Source: a virus. Taken from it: a stretch of DNA of 44,383 nucleotides. Shown in pieces: positions 31,226 to 42,523 of the stretch. The position numbers and the translations under genes were made by a program. The DNA is taken from positions 1 to 44,383 of IMG/VR virus record IMGVR_UViG_3300018074_000006; one strand, 5' to 3'. Positions within the stretch are counted from its first letter, which is position 1. Every line of letters starts with the position of its first letter. The notes under the pieces were generated by a model, which saw only the letters and a program-made list of their open reading frames with translations, had not been told where the DNA came from and did no database searches.

Positions 31226-31646
31226 GTCCGCACCAGGGGCAGGCTTCATCCGGCAGCCGGGCCTGCACCTTCTTGACCAGCGCCGCGAGCGCGCGCTCCG
31301 CCGTCTCCACGTGCACGGGCTTGATGGCCGCGTTGTCCTGATCTTCTACGGGCTTCGCCGCCAGGAGGGACTCCAGCCGGAGGAACAGGGCCTGGGCCTG
31401 GGTGTCGCCGTCGCTGGCCTGTTTCAGGATGCGCTGGACGACGGGGGCTAGGTCCTCCTGGGACAGGCCGGCGAACACTCGCGAGAGGGACCGGCCCACC
31501 TTCACCTCGGGGTCCTCCGGGGCGGAACTCAAGTCCTCTCCGTCCGGTGCCGATGGGAAGGGTTCCGCGCGCGGGGGCGCGGGCTCGGGCGCGCTCGCGC
31601 GCGAGCGCGCGGGGGCGTCCTTCTTCGCGGGCTTCCACTTGGCCAT
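31209..31646 (-). CDS. Probable terminase small subunit
   Basis: 145 residues. After a Lys/Pro/Ala-rich N-terminal tail of about 50 residues, VKVGRSLSRVFAGLSQEDLAPVVQRILKQASDGDTQAQALFLRL matches the helical core seen in many small terminases that recognise the packaging site. The C-terminus ends in a CPWCGHG motif. First gene after a strong terminator and before the large subunit. TACACT lies 8 bases before the ATG and no Shine-Dalgarno is visible, so this could be a leaderless late message. Confidence 0.6.
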   Translation of the reverse strand: MAKWKPAKKDAPARSRASAPEPAPPRAEPFPSAPDGEDLSSAPEDPEVKVGRSLSRVFAGLSQEDLAPVVQRILKQASDGDTQAQALFLRLESLLAAKPVEDQDNAAIKPVHVETAERALAALVKKVQARLPDEACPWCGHGAAE

Positions 31647-31685: not shown

Positions 31686-31719
31686 CCCCCGGACCGTGGA
31701 GGGGGCCACGATCCGGGGG
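31686..31719 (-). terminator. Terminator before the late structural operon
   Basis: 14-bp stem with one mismatch (31686-31699 with 31706-31719), 6-base loop, followed on the minus strand by CTTTCCCTTTG. It separates the small-gene block from packaging genes, so late genes need their own promoter. Confidence 0.75.
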
Positions 31720-31769
31720 CACCCGCGCGCCGGGAAGGAGTTACCAGCGCGCGGGCGTTCAGTAGTTCG

Positions 31770-32015
31770 CTAGTAGTTCACGCCCACCCGGAACAGCCGG
31801 GGCTCCTCGGGGATCTCCTCCACCGGCGGGGCGCTCGCGTACAGCGCGGCCCGGAGGTCGCACAGCGCCGTCTCGTGGGCTTGGTCCGCGGCGTCGATCG
31901 CCTTGACCGATGCCAGGGGGCGGCCCTTCGCCAGCGCGTCGCGCGCCTCCTGGGCTCGGATGAACGTGCGTCCGCAGCGGTTCAGGGCCTCTACCACCTT
32001 CGGGTCGGGTTCCAT
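31770..32015 (-). CDS. Small hypothetical helical protein
   Basis: 81 residues, mainly helical: PKVVEALNRCGRTFIRAQEARDALAKG, then AIDAADQAHETALCDLRAALYAS, and a short RLFRVGVNY end. Two Cys residues are too far apart to suggest a zinc site. The ATG lies 1 base after the stop of the zinc-ribbon gene, and a terminator follows. It is the last gene of the small-gene block. Not recognised. Confidence 0.6.
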   Translation of the reverse strand: MEPDPKVVEALNRCGRTFIRAQEARDALAKGRPLASVKAIDAADQAHETALCDLRAALYASAPPVEEIPEEPRLFRVGVNY

Positions 32016-32210
32016 CTAGCTCTCCTTCGCGGCCTTGGCCGCCTTGAACTTCTCGCAATCGCAGGGCGTTCCAAAGTCGCCCTCAATGCACACGTGCGGG
32101 CGCTCCGCCGTGTGATGACCCAGCGTGTGGCCGCACTTGCACAAACGGTCAAAGCCCCGCAGGGCGTACCGTCCGTCTGTCTCCCGCGGCGTCGTGGTGT
32201 CCTTGGTCAT
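32016..32210 (-). CDS. Small zinc-ribbon-like protein
   Basis: 64 residues. DRLCKCGHTLGHH and later HVCIEGDFGTPCDCEKF give two Cys/His clusters that could bind one or two zinc ions. Basic C-terminus (KAAKAAKES). Its ATG follows the 30-bp start-associated element by 6 bases with no Shine-Dalgarno between, so the transcript may be leaderless. Could be a nucleic-acid-binding or host-modulating protein. Confidence 0.65.
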   Translation of the reverse strand: MTKDTTTPRETDGRYALRGFDRLCKCGHTLGHHTAERPHVCIEGDFGTPCDCEKFKAAKAAKES

Positions 32211-32216
32211 GCTTCA

Positions 32217-32246
32217 CGTATCGGCGAACGGCCTGGGGACTTTAGC
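32217..32246 (-). promoter_or_regulatory. Start-associated 30-bp element, copy 1
   Basis: Minus-strand GCTAAAGTCC, 12 variable bases, CCGATACG. Part of it forms the 3' arm of a perfect 10-bp hairpin (32230-32239 with 32256-32265) just after the upstream stop. The downstream ATG is 6 bases past GATACG. Confidence 0.7.
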
Positions 32247-32271
32247 TTCCCAAAATCCCCAGGCCGGGCCT

Positions 32272-32544
32272 TCACTTGCGCGCGTTCCTGTGCGCCGCCA
32301 CGCTGACCGCGTGGGCCAGGGTCTTGGCGCGCTCGCGCGCGAACTTCGCTTTCAGGCTGGGCTTCAGGACTTCCACGTCCTGGGCCCGCAGCGTCTCCAC
32401 GTGGCCGCGGTCATTCTCCACCGCCACGTAGGTCCCGAGCGCGTCCAGCACCGTGGCCCAGCCCTTATAGGGCGCGCGCGGGGCGCGCGGGTGGGCGCGC
32501 ACGTAGCACCTCACCACCAGTCCGTTCCCGTTTCGGTCCTTCAT
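32272..32544 (-). CDS. Small hypothetical beta-rich protein
   Basis: 90 residues. KDRNGNGLVVRCYVRAHP, YKGWATVLDALGTYVAVEND and VETLRAQDVEVLKP read as an SH3-like small barrel, followed by a basic helix (KAKFARERAKTLAHAVSVAAHRNARK) that could touch nucleic acid. ATG is 2 bases after the upstream stop. Not recognised. Confidence 0.6.
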   Translation of the reverse strand: MKDRNGNGLVVRCYVRAHPRAPRAPYKGWATVLDALGTYVAVENDRGHVETLRAQDVEVLKPSLKAKFARERAKTLAHAVSVAAHRNARK

Positions 32545-32546
32545 GG

Positions 32547-32774
32547 CTAGGTGTCCTCGCCCTGATACGGGTCCGCGGAAATGGTCACCACCTTGCGCTC
32601 CACCAGCTTGTGGAGGAACGCGCCGCAGCCGGCGCGCTGCGCGCTGCGCTCGCCCTCGGTCAGGGTCAACCCAGTGCGGGCCGTGTGCCACGCCTCGGCC
32701 TCCTCGGCGGCCTCGGTCGCCAGCCGCGTCCAGTCGTACGGCACCTTGCCACTCGGTCGGATCTTCTCGCCCAT
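32547..32774 (-). CDS. Small hypothetical protein
   Basis: 75 residues with AAEEAEAWHTARTGLTLTEGERSAQRAGCGAFLHKLVERKVVTI, a helical body with a single Cys. ATG has GAAGGAGA upstream, after the second copy of the 30-bp element. Function not recognised. Confidence 0.6.
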   Translation of the reverse strand: MGEKIRPSGKVPYDWTRLATEAAEEAEAWHTARTGLTLTEGERSAQRAGCGAFLHKLVERKVVTISADPYQGEDT

Positions 32775-32803
32775 CTCGCTCTCCTTCTTGCCCCTCGCTG
32801 GAA

Positions 32804-32833
32804 CGTATCGGCGTTTACACGGGGGACTTTAGC
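32804..32833 (-). promoter_or_regulatory. Start-associated 30-bp element, copy 2
   Basis: Identical over all 30 bases to the copy at 34535-34564, including the variable middle (CGTGTAAACG). A GGGG just upstream can pair with its CCCC. About 29 bases separate GATACG from the downstream ATG, with a Shine-Dalgarno between. Confidence 0.75.
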
Positions 32834-32862
32834 CCCGCGGAATCGTGAGTCCTGGCGCGGAC

Positions 32863-33042
32863 TTATGGCGTTCCCAGGTCCTCGGTCACGATGCGCCGGG
32901 CCTCGGCCTCCGTGGTCGCGGTCCCCACCTGAACGCCGCCGGTGCTGATCCGCCACACGCCCCCGGCCGGGCCGGGCGGGGTGATGGTCCACCCGCGGAG
33001 CCGGATCGGCTGCGGCTCGGGCGCGAGAGGCCGGCGCTTCAC
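32863..33042 (-). CDS. Small hypothetical protein (59 residues)
   Basis: Starts at a GTG overlapping the upstream stop (GTGA). The sequence (RLRGWTITPPGPAGGVWRIS then GVQVGTATTEAEARRIVTEDLG) looks like a three-stranded sheet with a helix, as in small DUF-type phage proteins. Translational coupling and the sensible fold support it. Function unknown. Confidence 0.6.
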   Translation of the reverse strand: MKRRPLAPEPQPIRLRGWTITPPGPAGGVWRISTGGVQVGTATTEAEARRIVTEDLGTP

Positions 33043-33260
33043 GAGAGGAACTCCCGCAGCTTCGCGTCGGCCGCGCGCTCCAGGAACGCGCCCAGAAAGG
33101 ACTTCGCGAACGTCGCGCCCGTCGGCAGCGCGCCGCCGGCCGTGATGCCGGTCACCTCGGCCAGGAACGCGCGGCCCGCGTCGGTACGCGCCTCCACGGA
33201 GAACTCCGTGGCCGAGAACTTCAAGCCGCCCGTGATTTCCAGGTCCACCGTGTTCGCCAT
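33039..33260 (-). CDS. Small hypothetical protein
   Basis: 73 residues. ATG at 33260 is preferred over one 24 bases upstream because AAGGAG lies 7 bases before it. MANTVDLEITGGLKFSATEFSVEARTD suggests strands; FAKSFLGAFLERAADAKL is a helix. Coupled to the 59-residue gene. Not recognised. Confidence 0.6.
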   Translation of the reverse strand: MANTVDLEITGGLKFSATEFSVEARTDAGRAFLAEVTGITAGGALPTGATFAKSFLGAFLERAADAKLREFLS

Positions 33261-33291
33261 GTCCGTCTCCTTCGCGTCCCTCATGCTAGGC

Positions 33292-33321
33292 TTTACGGCG
33301 AAGCCGCCGCAGAACTTTAGC
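33292..33321 (-). promoter_or_regulatory. Start-associated element, degenerate copy
   Basis: Minus strand keeps GCTAAAGT at the 5' end and CCGTAAAG instead of CCGATACG at the fixed 30-base distance, upstream of the 73-residue gene. A weakened copy. Confidence 0.4.
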
Positions 33322-33350
33322 CCGCCAGTTTCGTGAGTGATTCCGCAGAG

Positions 33351-33743
33351 TTAGCGGTCGAAGGGTGCCACCCGCATCCGCTCGATTTCCTCGGCCCCCA
33401 TCCCGGCGGCCTGGAGTTCCTTCGCGTACTCGTTCCACGCCTGGAGGAGCGCGCGCCCGCGAGGGCGGCCCATGTTCGCGGTGGCGTCCTGGGCGCGGAG
33501 GCTGAAGAAGTGCGGCACCGCTGCGCGCCAGGACTGGAACTCGCGGCGGGCCTGGACTTCTCGTTCGTAGTCCATGCTCGGGTCCGTGGCCGGCCGCTCC
33601 GCCTGCCAGCGGATGGAGCCGGTGGAGCCGGGCTCCGGCGGCCGGTGCCACACGTGCCCGTGGGCTTCCAGCGCGCGCTGGAGTTCCAGGATTTCCTCCA
33701 GGGTCAGCGCGTCCAGGTTCGAGTAGTCGGTGGGGATGGCCAC
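33351..33743 (-). CDS. Hypothetical protein
   Basis: 130 residues from a GTG one base after the upstream stop. LDALTLEEILELQRALEAHGHVWHR is an amphipathic start, the middle is charged (MDYEREVQARREFQSWRAAVPHFF), and LLQAWNEYAKELQAAGMGAEEIERM resembles a small helical bundle. An internal ATG (MDYEREV) is an alternative start. Not recognised. Confidence 0.6.
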   Translation of the reverse strand: MAIPTDYSNLDALTLEEILELQRALEAHGHVWHRPPEPGSTGSIRWQAERPATDPSMDYEREVQARREFQSWRAAVPHFFSLRAQDATANMGRPRGRALLQAWNEYAKELQAAGMGAEEIERMRVAPFDR

Positions 33744-33744
33744 G

Positions 33745-33993
33745 CTACACCCGCGCCCGGTGCGCGCGCTCGTTCTTGCGGCGGGTCCGGCGGCCCACGA
33801 GTTCCCGGCGGAGGACGCTGATCTCGTCGCGGTAGTAGCCGCCCCGGCCGCCACCGTCGGCGCGGTCCAGGCCGTCCGCCGAGTCCAGGCCCTTCTGGTA
33901 GCCCAGGATCGCGTAGTGGATTTCCGCGTCGGTCAGCGTGCGGGCCTTGGCCTCCGCCGCCGTCCAGTCGATCTTTGCGTCCGCTTCCGCCAT
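33745..33993 (-). CDS. Small hypothetical basic-tailed protein
   Basis: 82 residues. IDWTAAEAKARTLTDAEIHYAILGYQKGLD is helical and the C-terminus is strongly basic (LRRELVGRRTRRKNERAHRARV), suggesting nucleic-acid contact. ATG has AAGGAGA upstream, after a copy of the 30-bp element. Function unknown. Confidence 0.6.
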   Translation of the reverse strand: MAEADAKIDWTAAEAKARTLTDAEIHYAILGYQKGLDSADGLDRADGGGRGGYYRDEISVLRRELVGRRTRRKNERAHRARV

Positions 33994-34017
33994 CTCGTTC
34001 TCCTTCCCTCGGGTGTT

Positions 34018-34047
34018 CGTATCGGTCGCGCGCCGGGGGACTTTAGC
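34018..34047 (-). promoter_or_regulatory. Start-associated 30-bp element, copy 3
   Basis: GCTAAAGTCC, 12 variable bases, CCGATACG on the minus strand. The TAA in the element is also the stop codon of the upstream gene. A Shine-Dalgarno and ATG follow about 25 bases on. Confidence 0.7.
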
Positions 34048-34252
34048 GGGGGCGGTTGCCCGCAGCCACGTCAGCCGCCTGCGCCGCGTCGGCCTCTAGG
34101 TGGGTGTCGAACATGCCCAGCGACACGGAGCCCACGTTCACGCCGTTCTCGCGGACGGCGCGGCGGAGTTCGAAGCCGCAGGCCACGCCGCAGTCGGTCA
34201 CCGGCACCACCATGTAGTCCGCCGGCTTCTTGGTAGCCTTCTTCTTGCCCAT
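34043..34252 (-). CDS. Small hypothetical protein
   Basis: 69 residues. Basic start (GKKKATKKPAD), then YMVVPVTDCGVACGFELRRAVRENGVNVGSVSLGMFDTHLEADAAQ, which reads as an alpha/beta mini-fold with a C-x4-C pair. ATG with AAGGAG upstream, 23 bases after a copy of the 30-bp element. Its stop lies in the next element. Not recognised. Confidence 0.6.
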   Translation of the reverse strand: MGKKKATKKPADYMVVPVTDCGVACGFELRRAVRENGVNVGSVSLGMFDTHLEADAAQAADVAAGNRPR

Positions 34253-34275
34253 CGCTGTCTCCTTCCCCCGGTTCT

Positions 34276-34305
34276 CGTATCGGCCGCTCGGGCCAGGACT
34301 TTAGC
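34276..34305 (-). promoter_or_regulatory. Start-associated 30-bp element, copy 4
   Basis: GCTAAAGTCC, 12 variable bases, CCGATACG. GCCGCT at the edge can pair with AGCGGC inside it. The TAA serves as the upstream gene's stop. Next ATG is about 23 bases away with AAGGAG. Confidence 0.7.
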
Positions 34306-34528
34306 GGCTGCCCGCCACGTGCCACGCCACGGACATGACCAGTTCGCCCTTGGTCATGCTGACGGCCAGGGGCAGCCGGCCGGTCAGGGCGCGGAACACG
34401 ATGGCGCGGGCCTGTCCGATCGGGCAGCGCACCGTGCGCGCCAGGAACCCCGCGGCGCGGTTCGCCGCTGCGCCCGTCACGTTCTCGCCCACCCAGCCCT
34501 TGACCATTTCGACCGTCTTAGCATCCAT
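34301..34528 (-). CDS. Small hypothetical helical protein
   Basis: 75 residues. VKGWVGENVTGAAANRAAGFLARTVRCPIGQARAIVFRALTG looks like an amphipathic helical domain with one Cys. The ATG follows GATACG of the 30-bp element by 6 bases and has no Shine-Dalgarno, so the message may be leaderless. Not recognised. Confidence 0.6.
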   Translation of the reverse strand: MDAKTVEMVKGWVGENVTGAAANRAAGFLARTVRCPIGQARAIVFRALTGRLPLAVSMTKGELVMSVAWHVAGSR

Positions 34529-34534
34529 GTCCCA

Positions 34535-34564
34535 CGTATCGGCGTTTACACGGGGGACTTTAGC
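34535..34564 (-). promoter_or_regulatory. Start-associated 30-bp element, copy 5
   Basis: Identical over 30 bases to the copy at 32804-32833. The TAA inside is the stop of the coiled-coil gene. ATG lies 6 bases past GATACG. Confidence 0.75.
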
Positions 34565-35198
34565 CCGCCCATACCCCGAGGAAAAACGCGACGATGGCCG
34601 CGCACGTGCAGAACAGGGCCACGTCCAGGCCGGAGAAGATCGGGCCCCGGCGGCGCTCGCCGCCCGTGCGTCGGTCGAACGTGATGCCCAGCGTGGGGTG
34701 GACCGGGAATCCGCCGCGCGTGTTCAGCGGCTCCGCCGGCATGGGCCGGGCGGGGTGGCGGTAGGGGGCGAACATACCGGCGTACAGGTCCCGCTTGATA
34801 CGTGCTTTGAACTCGGCCACGTCGGTGCGGAGCGCGTCGAAGTCCCGGCGCTCGGAGTCGAACCCGGACTGGGTGCTGTGCTCGTGTTCGTGGAGGCGGC
34901 GCTCCAGGCCGGTGAACTTCTCGGCGGCCTTGTCCAGGCGCGCGTGCGCGCGGGTCGCCTCCAGCTTGGCGGTGTTCGACGTGCGCGCCATCTCCAGCAT
35001 GGAGACGCCCCGGCGCTGGTCGCGCTCGCGCTCCAGGGTGGCGAGCCGGCCACACTGACTGTCCGCGCGTGCGCGCGTCTCGTCCCGCAGCGATTCCAGG
35101 GCGGCCAGGGCGGCCTCGCCCATCGCGTTGGTGGATTCTTCCAGGCCGGTGACCGGGTGCTTCAGGTCCACGAGTAGCTGGCGGGGCGTGCGGATCAT
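34560..35198 (-). CDS. Coiled-coil protein with C-terminal membrane anchor
   Basis: 212 residues. The first 140 are mostly coiled coil (AALAALESLRDETRARADSQCGRLATLERERDQ; EARLDK-like repeats through KFTGLERRLHEHE). After a linker with HPTLGITFDRRTGGERRRG comes a hydrophobic tail (GLDVALFCTCAAIVAFFLGVWAG) that would insert C-terminally in the membrane. Starts with ATGA overlap. This tail-anchored layout suggests a membrane-docked scaffold, perhaps for host takeover or superinfection exclusion. Not recognised. Confidence 0.65.
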   Translation of the reverse strand: MIRTPRQLLVDLKHPVTGLEESTNAMGEAALAALESLRDETRARADSQCGRLATLERERDQRRGVSMLEMARTSNTAKLEATRAHARLDKAAEKFTGLERRLHEHEHSTQSGFDSERRDFDALRTDVAEFKARIKRDLYAGMFAPYRHPARPMPAEPLNTRGGFPVHPTLGITFDRRTGGERRRGPIFSGLDVALFCTCAAIVAFFLGVWAG

Positions 35199-35380
35199 GG
35201 CGTCAGGTCCTCCAGGAGGCGCGCGGCCTCCTTCTCGTTCAGGGTGTCGTCCTTCGGCGGGGCCTCGGCCATGAGGGCCCGGTGTCTGGCCGCGTGCTCG
35301 CGGCTCCAGGCCCGATGGCGGGGCGTCGCCCGCAGGGCCTCCAGCTTGTACTTGTCGGCGGATCGGGGTGCGTTCTTCAT
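35195..35380 (-). CDS. Small charged protein at start of minus-strand block
   Basis: 61 residues: KNAPRSADKYKLEALRATPRHRAWSREHAARHRALMAEAPP, then acidic TLNEKEAARLLEDL. ATG at 35380 has AGAAGGA upstream; the longer upstream frame crosses the hairpins and does not look coding. It overlaps the coiled-coil gene start (ATGA). It resembles a small HNH-free, His/Arg-rich nucleic-acid-binding peptide, but no family is recognised. Confidence 0.55.
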   Translation of the reverse strand: MKNAPRSADKYKLEALRATPRHRAWSREHAARHRALMAEAPPKDDTLNEKEAARLLEDLTP

Positions 35381-35490
35381 CGCGCGGTCCTTCTTGATGC
35401 CTTGCGCCAGGGTCGGCCGTCGGCGGGCTGGGGTCGGTGCAAACGACGTGCCGCGAGGATTTGCCGGTGGACGTTTACACGGGGAGGGGG

Positions 35491-35526
35491 AAAAGTGGGT
35501 CGGGGTGCGCGAGTCACCCGACCCAC
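35491..35526 (-). terminator. Terminator or attenuator in the divergent region
   Basis: 12-bp stem with one bulge (35495-35507 with 35515-35526) followed on the minus strand by TTTTCCCCC. It lies between the divergent region and the first leftward gene, so it can attenuate leftward transcription. Confidence 0.6.
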
Positions 35527-35619
35527 CCTGGGGGGAGGGCCTTTCGCTGGGTTCCCCTTTTGCGTACCCCCTGCGTATTACTTGCCCATGCGTCTCCGTC
35601 GATATTTGCACACCCCCGG

Positions 35620-35655
35620 CCCACCCCCCACGCTGCCCGAAACGTGGGGGGTGGG
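35620..35655. repeat. Perfect 13-bp inverted repeat (G/C-tract hairpin)
   Basis: Arms at 35620-35632 and 35643-35655 with a 10-base spacer; one arm is a C-rich tract and the other a G-rich tract. No T-run follows on either strand, so it could be a protein-binding site or part of an origin rather than a terminator. Confidence 0.6.
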
Positions 35656-35915
35656 CAGGTGCGAAAAAGTTGCCGTGATGTTTAGGTCACACCCTAGGTA
35701 TGGTCTGGAGTCGGTGGCCACGGACCGAGTTTCACGTTCCGCCCTTCTTCTACGTGTAAACACCCACCCCCTGCCCCCATGTAGTAACCCAGTGCAGAAT
35801 GGCCATACGTGCAGGGGATGGCGTAAGCCCAGGTACAGCTGCACGATTCACTGGATTCCGACCTAGCCTCAATGTAGAAATGTAGAACGCTCCTCTATGT
35901 GCTCCCCATATAATG

Positions 35916-35937
35916 CTACTTGCATACTACTTGCATA
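35916..35937. repeat. Tandem 11-bp repeat CTACTTGCATA x2
   Basis: Two exact adjacent copies, about one helical turn each, directly after TATAAT and within the most AT-rich part of the window. They may act as an operator or origin iteron. Confidence 0.65.
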
Positions 35938-35968
35938 TTACTATGTTCTTATTAGAGGGATCTTCTTT

Positions 35969-35984
35969 CTACACTACTACACTA
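35969..35984. repeat. Tandem 8-bp repeat CTACACTA x2
   Basis: Two exact adjacent copies just downstream of the 11-bp repeats; each contains a TACACT hexamer like those seen before several minus-strand starts. Confidence 0.5.
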
Positions 35985-36127
35985 CGAAAGAGTTTCCACA
36001 GCATCCACAAGGGCTTACGTCCACGTCCCTTTATACACCTGCCCTTCATCGTTATGCACCATTGTACACGGCACGGTCCCTGCACAGTCCTCCACGGACC
36101 CCACTTCCACCCCTCCAGGAGGCCCCC

Positions 36128-36628
36128 TTGACCGATCCCACGAACCCCGAGAACTGCCCCGTGTGCGGCCTACCCCGAGTCGCCGAAAAGGGGCAGTACG
36201 CGTGCCCAGGCTGCACCATCGCCCCGCCCTCCACGAACGTCCCCCGCTACACCCACAAGGAGGTCCGCCCCGAGGCCCCACCAGGAGACGCCCAGGCGGA
36301 CCCCCACCCCAAGGACCCGACCTCGCGCCCCTACGCCAAGGCCGTCCAGACGTTCCTGGACTGGCGCAATCTCCAGGCCCAGGCCGCCCATGCGGACCAC
36401 CACCACGTGGCCGCCGAGGTGCGCGTGGTGGCCCTTCGCGCCGTGCGTCCCTGGGATGCCGATTCCTTGGCCCGCGCCGAACTGGTCCTGAAGCAAGCCC
36501 GCGGCACCGCGCGCGTCATGGCGGACCTCTGCGCCTCGGCCCGCAGCGAGGTCCTGGAGGCGAACACCGCCCTGACCATCGCCCTGATCCGAGCGGAAAA
36601 CGGTTCCACTCCAGAGGGCAACGCGTGA
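36128..36628 (+). CDS. Zinc-ribbon protein, first gene of the rightward operon
   Basis: 166 residues from a TTG with AGGAGG five bases upstream; a longer in-frame extension crosses the regulatory region and is not used. The N-terminus has a zinc ribbon (NCPVCGLPR..YACPGCTIA). The rest is disordered and Pro/Asp-rich, then helical (YAKAVQTFLDWRNLQAQAA; LARAELVLKQARGTARVMADLCASA). It may be an early DNA-binding regulator. Its start context is identical over 15 bases to that of the HTH-phosphoesterase gene. Confidence 0.65.
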   Translation: MTDPTNPENCPVCGLPRVAEKGQYACPGCTIAPPSTNVPRYTHKEVRPEAPPGDAQADPHPKDPTSRPYAKAVQTFLDWRNLQAQAAHADHHHVAAEVRVVALRAVRPWDADSLARAELVLKQARGTARVMADLCASARSEVLEANTALTIALIRAENGSTPEGNA

Positions 36629-36730
36629 CCCAAAAGCACCCCTCCGTGACCCTGCCCGAGCCCGTGTAAACGCCCCAGCTGATCCGTGCCCTGGCACGCT
36701 GTCTGCACCACCCGAGCCCAGGACGCTGCC

Positions 36731-36760
36731 GTTCAAGTCCCCTCGGGCGCTGCCGATACG
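36731..36760 (+). promoter_or_regulatory. Start-associated 30-bp element, plus-strand copy
   Basis: GTTCAAGTCC, 12 variable bases, CCGATACG, here on the plus strand, with the same total length as the minus-strand copies. It overlaps a perfect 11-bp hairpin (36738-36748 with 36763-36773). A Shine-Dalgarno and ATG follow at 36800. Confidence 0.7.
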
Positions 36761-36799
36761 GTGCCCGAGGGGATCACACGGAGCGAAGGAGAACGCGCG

Positions 36800-37315
36800 A
36801 TGAAACTGTCCGACCTGACCGTGGGCGAGCGATACGCCTTCAAGACCCGCGGCGGCACTTACCTGGGCCGCCTCACCGGAGTGCGCCAGCCGTACAAGCG
36901 AACGTCCTACCGCGGCGCGGGCACGTTCCTGGGCTACTCCGTGGAACAGAACGACGGGTGCACGTTCACGGACGTGCGCTCCGTCTCCGCCGTGGCCAGC
37001 GACGAACCCTTGGGCGCGTACCTGAAGGACGCCACCGTCACCGTCGGGTGCGTGCTGTCCCCGGAGGCCGCCGCCGTGTCCAAGAATCGTCTGGCCCAGG
37101 CCGACTATGAGGCCCGCCGCTTCGCAGAGGATCGCGCCGTGAAGCTGGCTGAGGCACTCACCCAGGCCACCGGCCAAACGTGCCGCGTGGCGAGCCCTGG
37201 GAACTATCCCGGCGCGCGGTACGACATGGTGGCCAATCCGATGACCCTGGCCCAGTCCCTGCTCGCCACGATCGACGCCGCCGGCCCGTTGGCCGACGTG
37301 CACAAGGAGAACTGA
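36800..37315 (+). CDS. Hypothetical protein, GERYxF-family paralogue 1
   Basis: 171 residues. The N-terminus MKLSDLTVGERYAFKTRGGTY closely mirrors the start of a gene 0.7 kb downstream (KAKDLKIGERYVFR). A beta-rich barrel seems likely for the first 90 residues; the remainder is helical (LAQADYEARRFAEDRAVKLAEALTQATG). ATG with GAAGGAGA upstream, downstream of the 30-bp element. Function unknown. Confidence 0.6.
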   Translation: MKLSDLTVGERYAFKTRGGTYLGRLTGVRQPYKRTSYRGAGTFLGYSVEQNDGCTFTDVRSVSAVASDEPLGAYLKDATVTVGCVLSPEAAAVSKNRLAQADYEARRFAEDRAVKLAEALTQATGQTCRVASPGNYPGARYDMVANPMTLAQSLLATIDAAGPLADVHKEN

Positions 37316-42474: not shown

Positions 42475-42523
42475 ACTCAAGTCCGCCCCGGAGGATGCCG
42501 AGGAGTCGGGCAAGGAGTCCATC

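Follow-up and report, generated by a model that had tools for sequence, protein, structure and literature searches.

Predicted sigma-28-type promoters in front of small orphan genes on a phage contig

The DNA analyzed here (hereafter, the window) is a virus record of 44,383 bases, possibly incomplete, with a GC content of 0.69. Its left part contains leftward genes for a helicase, an exonuclease and a DNA polymerase; genes for the baseplate and tail, which match Pam3-like proteins, come next, and those for the head, portal and terminase after them. A run of small leftward genes upstream of the terminase genes contains five minus-strand copies of a 30-bp element; a sixth copy, on the plus strand, is separated from them by a divergent region of lower GC content (positions 35381-36127, GC 0.58). 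None of the five small leftward genes directly behind the elements has a Pfam match, and no tRNA genes were found in the window. Inside the divergent region, positions 35616-35659 form an inverted repeat, its 17-base arms being 94% complementary and separated by a gap of 10 bases, and TACTTGC words, possibly iterons, are repeated between positions 35577 and 35945.

The preliminary description of this DNA reported the six copies as directional, start-associated sequences with conserved ends and a variable middle, and this account stands in all its main points. All six are present with no mismatches to the pattern GYTMAAGTCC-N12-CCGATACG, whereas only 0.13 matches are expected from shuffles even when up to 3 mismatches are allowed. 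Scanning the window with a matrix built from the copies themselves gave scores of 28.8-32.9 for the six, compared with 19.4 for the next-best site and 20.4 for the best of 8 Markov shuffles, and in an unbiased 8-mer count GCTAAAGT was the top over-represented word in the window. The copies at 32804 and 34535 are identical across all 30 bases. Every copy points at a downstream start codon (ATG at 32210, 32774, 33993, 34252, 34528 and 36800) located 6 to about 39 bases away. At 32210 and 34528, the ATG lies exactly 6 bases beyond GATACG and no Shine-Dalgarno sequence is present; the other four genes have one of the GGAG type. Stop codons of upstream genes are embedded in the element as had been claimed: the TAA of the genes ending at 34560, 34301 and 34043 is the TAA of the TAAAG block, so that in three copies a single TAA doubles as stop codon and as part of the -35 block discussed below. 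The degenerate seventh copy, at 33321-33291 on the minus strand, has one extra spacer base and CCGTAAAG at its far end; it is suitably located in front of gene 33039-33284, but its score of 16.2 falls within the shuffle range, so that only its position speaks for it. A plus-strand near-match at 31527, which faces against the genes and also scores inside the shuffle range, was rejected. Elsewhere in the window, at 42475-42505 on the plus strand, a weak ACTCAAGTCC-N13-GCCGAGGAG site with a shuffle-level score precedes an ORF with MRNFFLFVVLIG.

Table 1. Predicted promoters and the genes behind them in the window
Feature	Position	Strand	Remarks
Sigma-28-type promoter (predicted)	32217..32246	-	TAAA 32244-32241, GCCGATAC 32225-32218; for gene 32016-32210
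Small gene, 64 aa, no Pfam match	32016..32210	-	ATG 6 bases after GATACG; predicted near-leaderless
Sigma-28-type promoter (predicted)	32804..32833	-	For gene 32547-32774; GTGTAAAC in spacer
Small gene, 75 aa, no Pfam match; Shine-Dalgarno present	32547..32774	-	
Degenerate copy, TAAA-N16-GCCGTAAA	33291..33321	-	Before gene 33039-33284; position only
Sigma-28-type promoter (predicted)	34018..34047	-	For gene 33745-33993; TAA = stop of gene 34043-34252
Small gene, 82 aa, no Pfam match	33745..33993	-	
Sigma-28-type promoter (predicted)	34276..34305	-	For gene 34043-34252; TAA = stop of gene 34301-34528
Small gene, 69 aa, no Pfam match	34043..34252	-	
Sigma-28-type promoter (predicted)	34535..34564	-	For gene 34301-34528; TAA = stop of gene 34560-35198; GTGTAAAC in spacer
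Small gene, 75 aa, no Pfam match	34301..34528	-	ATG 6 bases after GATACG; predicted near-leaderless
Sigma-28-type promoter (predicted), variant -35 TCAAG	36731..36760	+	For gene 36800-37315
Gene, 171 aa, no Pfam match	36800..37315	+	Early gene of rightward arm

The element was initially taken to resemble a promoter with -35 and -10 boxes 17 bases apart. The two blocks do lie near the places proposed for them, but the class of promoter had been missed: the arrangement TAAA-N15-GCCGATAC is the sigma-28 (FliA/SigD/WhiG) architecture. The consensus of the flagellar sigma-28 is TAAAGTTT-n11-GCCGATAA (PMC2859248), and all six copies fit TAAA-N15-GCCGATAA at 10-11 of the 12 positions. The deviations from the consensus are the last base of the -10 block, which is C instead of A, and the end of the -35 block, which is CC instead of TT. 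A search rule published for Rubrobacter looks near start codons for TAAA and GCCGATAA, tolerating up to two mismatches, and 12 of the 20 sites so identified had mapped starts (PMC8325347); each of the six copies has no more than two mismatches under this rule, a spacing of exactly 15 and a location within 200 bp upstream of a same-strand start codon. When the spacing was varied in a scan of the window, six sites were detected at 15 (0.2 expected), two at 16 and at most one elsewhere, and a tighter motif yielded six sites at spacing 15 and none at any other spacing from 8 to 22. Among a panel of sigma factor consensuses compared with shuffled copies, sigma-28 reached z-scores of 5.4-5.8, against at most 1.0 for the other classes, the consensuses of which were taken from general knowledge. 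Because these copies played no part in deriving the sigma-28 consensus, the match amounts to an independent identification. The copies match the sigma-70 consensus (TTGACA-N17-TATAAT) no better than shuffled copies do, and a sigma-70 scan of positions 31700-37300 detected no promoters of that class.

The six elements are probably sigma-28 (flagellar/WhiG) promoters, most likely read by FliA or WhiG of the host. The host sigma-28 appears the likeliest reader because no sigma factor was seen in the window, where searches for Sigma70_r2, Sigma70_r4 and FliA_WhiG returned no match even at E 10. Polymerase and portal queries gave no relative in the bacterial genome collection, and phage isolates match only at about 30-45%, pointing to mixed hosts. 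From the sequence we infer promoter activity, sigma factor, start sites and leaderless translation according to the following scheme. RNA polymerase with a sigma-28-family factor would bind TAAA (-35) and GCCGATAC (-10), 15 bases apart, and transcription would start about 6-7 bases beyond the -10 block, in agreement with the sigma-28-dependent aer promoter of E. coli, at which the start has been mapped 6 bp downstream of the -10 octamer (PMC2859248). Each promoter would serve one small gene or a pair of them in the stretch from the divergent regulatory region to the terminase genes, and the promoter at 36731 would drive gene 36800 on the other strand. Two of the transcripts, those of the genes starting at 32210 and 34528, which share identical geometry, would start no more than about two bases from the ATG, resulting in leaderless or nearly leaderless translation, and the remaining transcripts would have short leaders with Shine-Dalgarno sequences. 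The putative phage promoters share with bacterial FliA/SigD/WhiG promoters the -35 TAAAG, the -10 CCGATA, the spacing of exactly 15 and the predicted start distance, but differ from them in being repeated gene by gene in front of small orphan genes on a phage, in the variants TAAAGTCC and GCCGATAC, in the two predicted near-leaderless cases and, in three copies, in the sharing of the -35 TAA with upstream stop codons.

A search of related phages for the pattern, as suggested in the preliminary description, recovered the spacing and the blocks in a single relative (L051), but not in more distant ones. L051 is an 11.4-kb contig with a capsid protein and a terminase that are 59% and 70% identical, respectively, to those of the window, and carries GCTAAAGTCCTCCCCCGACCGACCGATA (GCTAAAGTCC-N12-CCGATA) 10 bases before an ATG. 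This element occupies the same region as in the window, with the homologue of gene 33039 on one side and the terminase genes on the other, and the TAA stop codon of the upstream gene again overlaps the -35 block. The gene behind it has no homologue in the window, so that the element has been retained in front of a different gene. L007, a tape-measure relative recovered from the same sample, has no element in its 18.7 kb, and about 80 further portal relatives produced only scattered matches and no element; several weak sites in three of these (L114, L108 and L105) were rejected as scattered matches without promoter-like context.

A separate word, GTGTAAAC (GTTTACAC), often CGTGTAAACG, occurs nine times in the window, compared with 0.2 expected (1293+, 9655-, 24289+, 32820-, 34551-, 35480-, 35754+, 36664+ and 39726-). 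It is located both within and between genes, with two copies in spacers of sigma-28-type promoters, and is frequent in the relatives as well (236-, 4156- and 5068- in L051; 1835- and 4107- in L007). This word may act as a dispersed, stoperator-like binding site for a regulator.

Among 2.9 million viral contigs, the exact pattern TAAAGTCC-N12-CCGATAC gave 33 hits, one in each contig, which by a rough estimate is about the chance level, and GCTAAAGTCC-N12-CCGATA gave 21 hits, about 15 of them distinct and about 5 promoter-like by eye. Two phage contigs, G009 and G018, were found only through the motif and showed no protein kinship to the window in the comparisons run; each was chosen for one match, so it is the further sites that count as evidence. 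In G009 (L146, IMGVR_UViG_3300017963_000451), TAAAG-N15/16-CCGATA sites overlap a promoter of the TTGACA-N17-TATAAT type gene by gene (2229-, 4015-, 6725-, 7338-, 10535-, 11039+ and 11476+), most of them before a Shine-Dalgarno sequence and an ATG. In G018 (L185 and L186, IMGVR_UViG_3300006162_000015), three exact TAAAGT...CCGATA sites each precede a Shine-Dalgarno sequence and an ATG, and TATAAT or TATAAC directly follows two of the three. The sites of both contigs could be dual sigma-28/sigma-70 promoters or, alternatively, an operator resembling sigma-28 sites. Two other contigs have a single GCTAAAGTCC-N12-CCGATACACCGGTCGGAGGTTAGCTATG site each (L033, 8446-8473; L043, 2957-2984), and in L033 the TAA is once more the stop codon of the upstream gene.

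Two of the copies in the window coincide with dyads. The 5' part of copy 32217, including its -35 block, forms the 3' arm of a hairpin of 17 bp at about 32229-32266 (z -6.2) behind the upstream gene, perhaps the end structure of the preceding transcript. In copy 36731, it is the -10 block that occupies the loop of a dyad of 16 bp (z -3.5), which may be a site for a regulator. The RNA-structure and terminator readings were dropped because the other four copies have no notable folding (z between -1.25 and 0.73 against shuffles).

Phages usually use the housekeeping sigma factor or bring their own. The same promoters might be read by a phage-encoded sigma-28-like factor or polymerase adaptor, either too diverged for detection or encoded outside the contig, and the possible incompleteness of the contig, the small orphan genes without assignments and the existence of phages that encode sigma factors or their analogs (PMC9429907) are compatible with such a reader. 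We nevertheless regard it as unlikely, given that the domain searches came back empty and that the close fit to the cellular consensus requires no phage factor. The array resembles phage-encoded sigma systems in that phage genes would be switched on via a sigma factor of non-housekeeping specificity, but those systems use phage-encoded factors; in the window no sigma factor was found, and the elements have the specificity of the flagellar sigma of bacteria. A fixed spacing around a freely varying middle would also suit a protein that binds two half sites, and the 30-bp element could in principle be an operator or stoperator bound by a phage regulator and not itself a promoter; the overlap of the same two blocks with sigma-70 promoters in G009, as expected of an operator, and the dyad around copy 36731 are in line with this. 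However, the blocks lack symmetry, keep the same orientation toward the gene and lie a short way upstream of a start codon in every case; in addition, the elements of the window are accompanied by no sigma-70 promoter and the sigma-28 match would have to be a coincidence, all of which makes an operator quite improbable.

The likeness to the start-associated sequences (SAS) of mycobacteriophages, also pointed out initially, holds as a concept but not in sequence, judging from a by-eye comparison with the quoted consensus. The SAS of cluster K mycobacteriophages, a 13-bp GGGATAGGAGCCC found 3-9 bp from start codons, is presumed to act in translation, and the ESAS, which has 17-bp inverted repeats, is reported to hold putative promoters (PMC3203893, PMC11373665). 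Like the window element, these are repeated directional sequences before many small phage genes, but they do not have the TAAA and GCCGATA blocks, whereas the window element is a two-block sequence of 30 bp that lies 6 to about 39 bases from the start codon; on this comparison, membership in the SAS was rejected. A translation-start or RNA-structure element (SAS, terminator or leader hairpin) is very improbable, since the start-codon association and the two hairpins are set against four copies that do not fold notably, a variable distance to the ATG, two genes lacking any Shine-Dalgarno sequence and a sequence unlike GGGATAGGAGCCC.

Returning to the sigma-28-class promoters, a possible, if doubtful, generalization is that phages couple the expression of small genes to host motility or differentiation via per-gene sigma-28 promoters that arose repeatedly, as pure sites in the lineage of the window and nested with sigma-70 promoters in G009 and G018, where either polymerase would start the same gene. 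The promoter class is known; as far as the open literature searched shows, a phage array of sigma-28 promoters is apparently undescribed, no paper on such an array having been found there, with most subscription journals outside the search. An array of flagellar-sigma promoters on a phage that brings no sigma factor would imply that motile or differentiating cells are the only, or the best, setting for the expression of a set of phage genes, and the infection strategy would be linked to the c-di-GMP/anti-sigma control of the host. The array would also supply a sequence rule for finding such phages and a hint that the host is a bacterium with FliA or WhiG.
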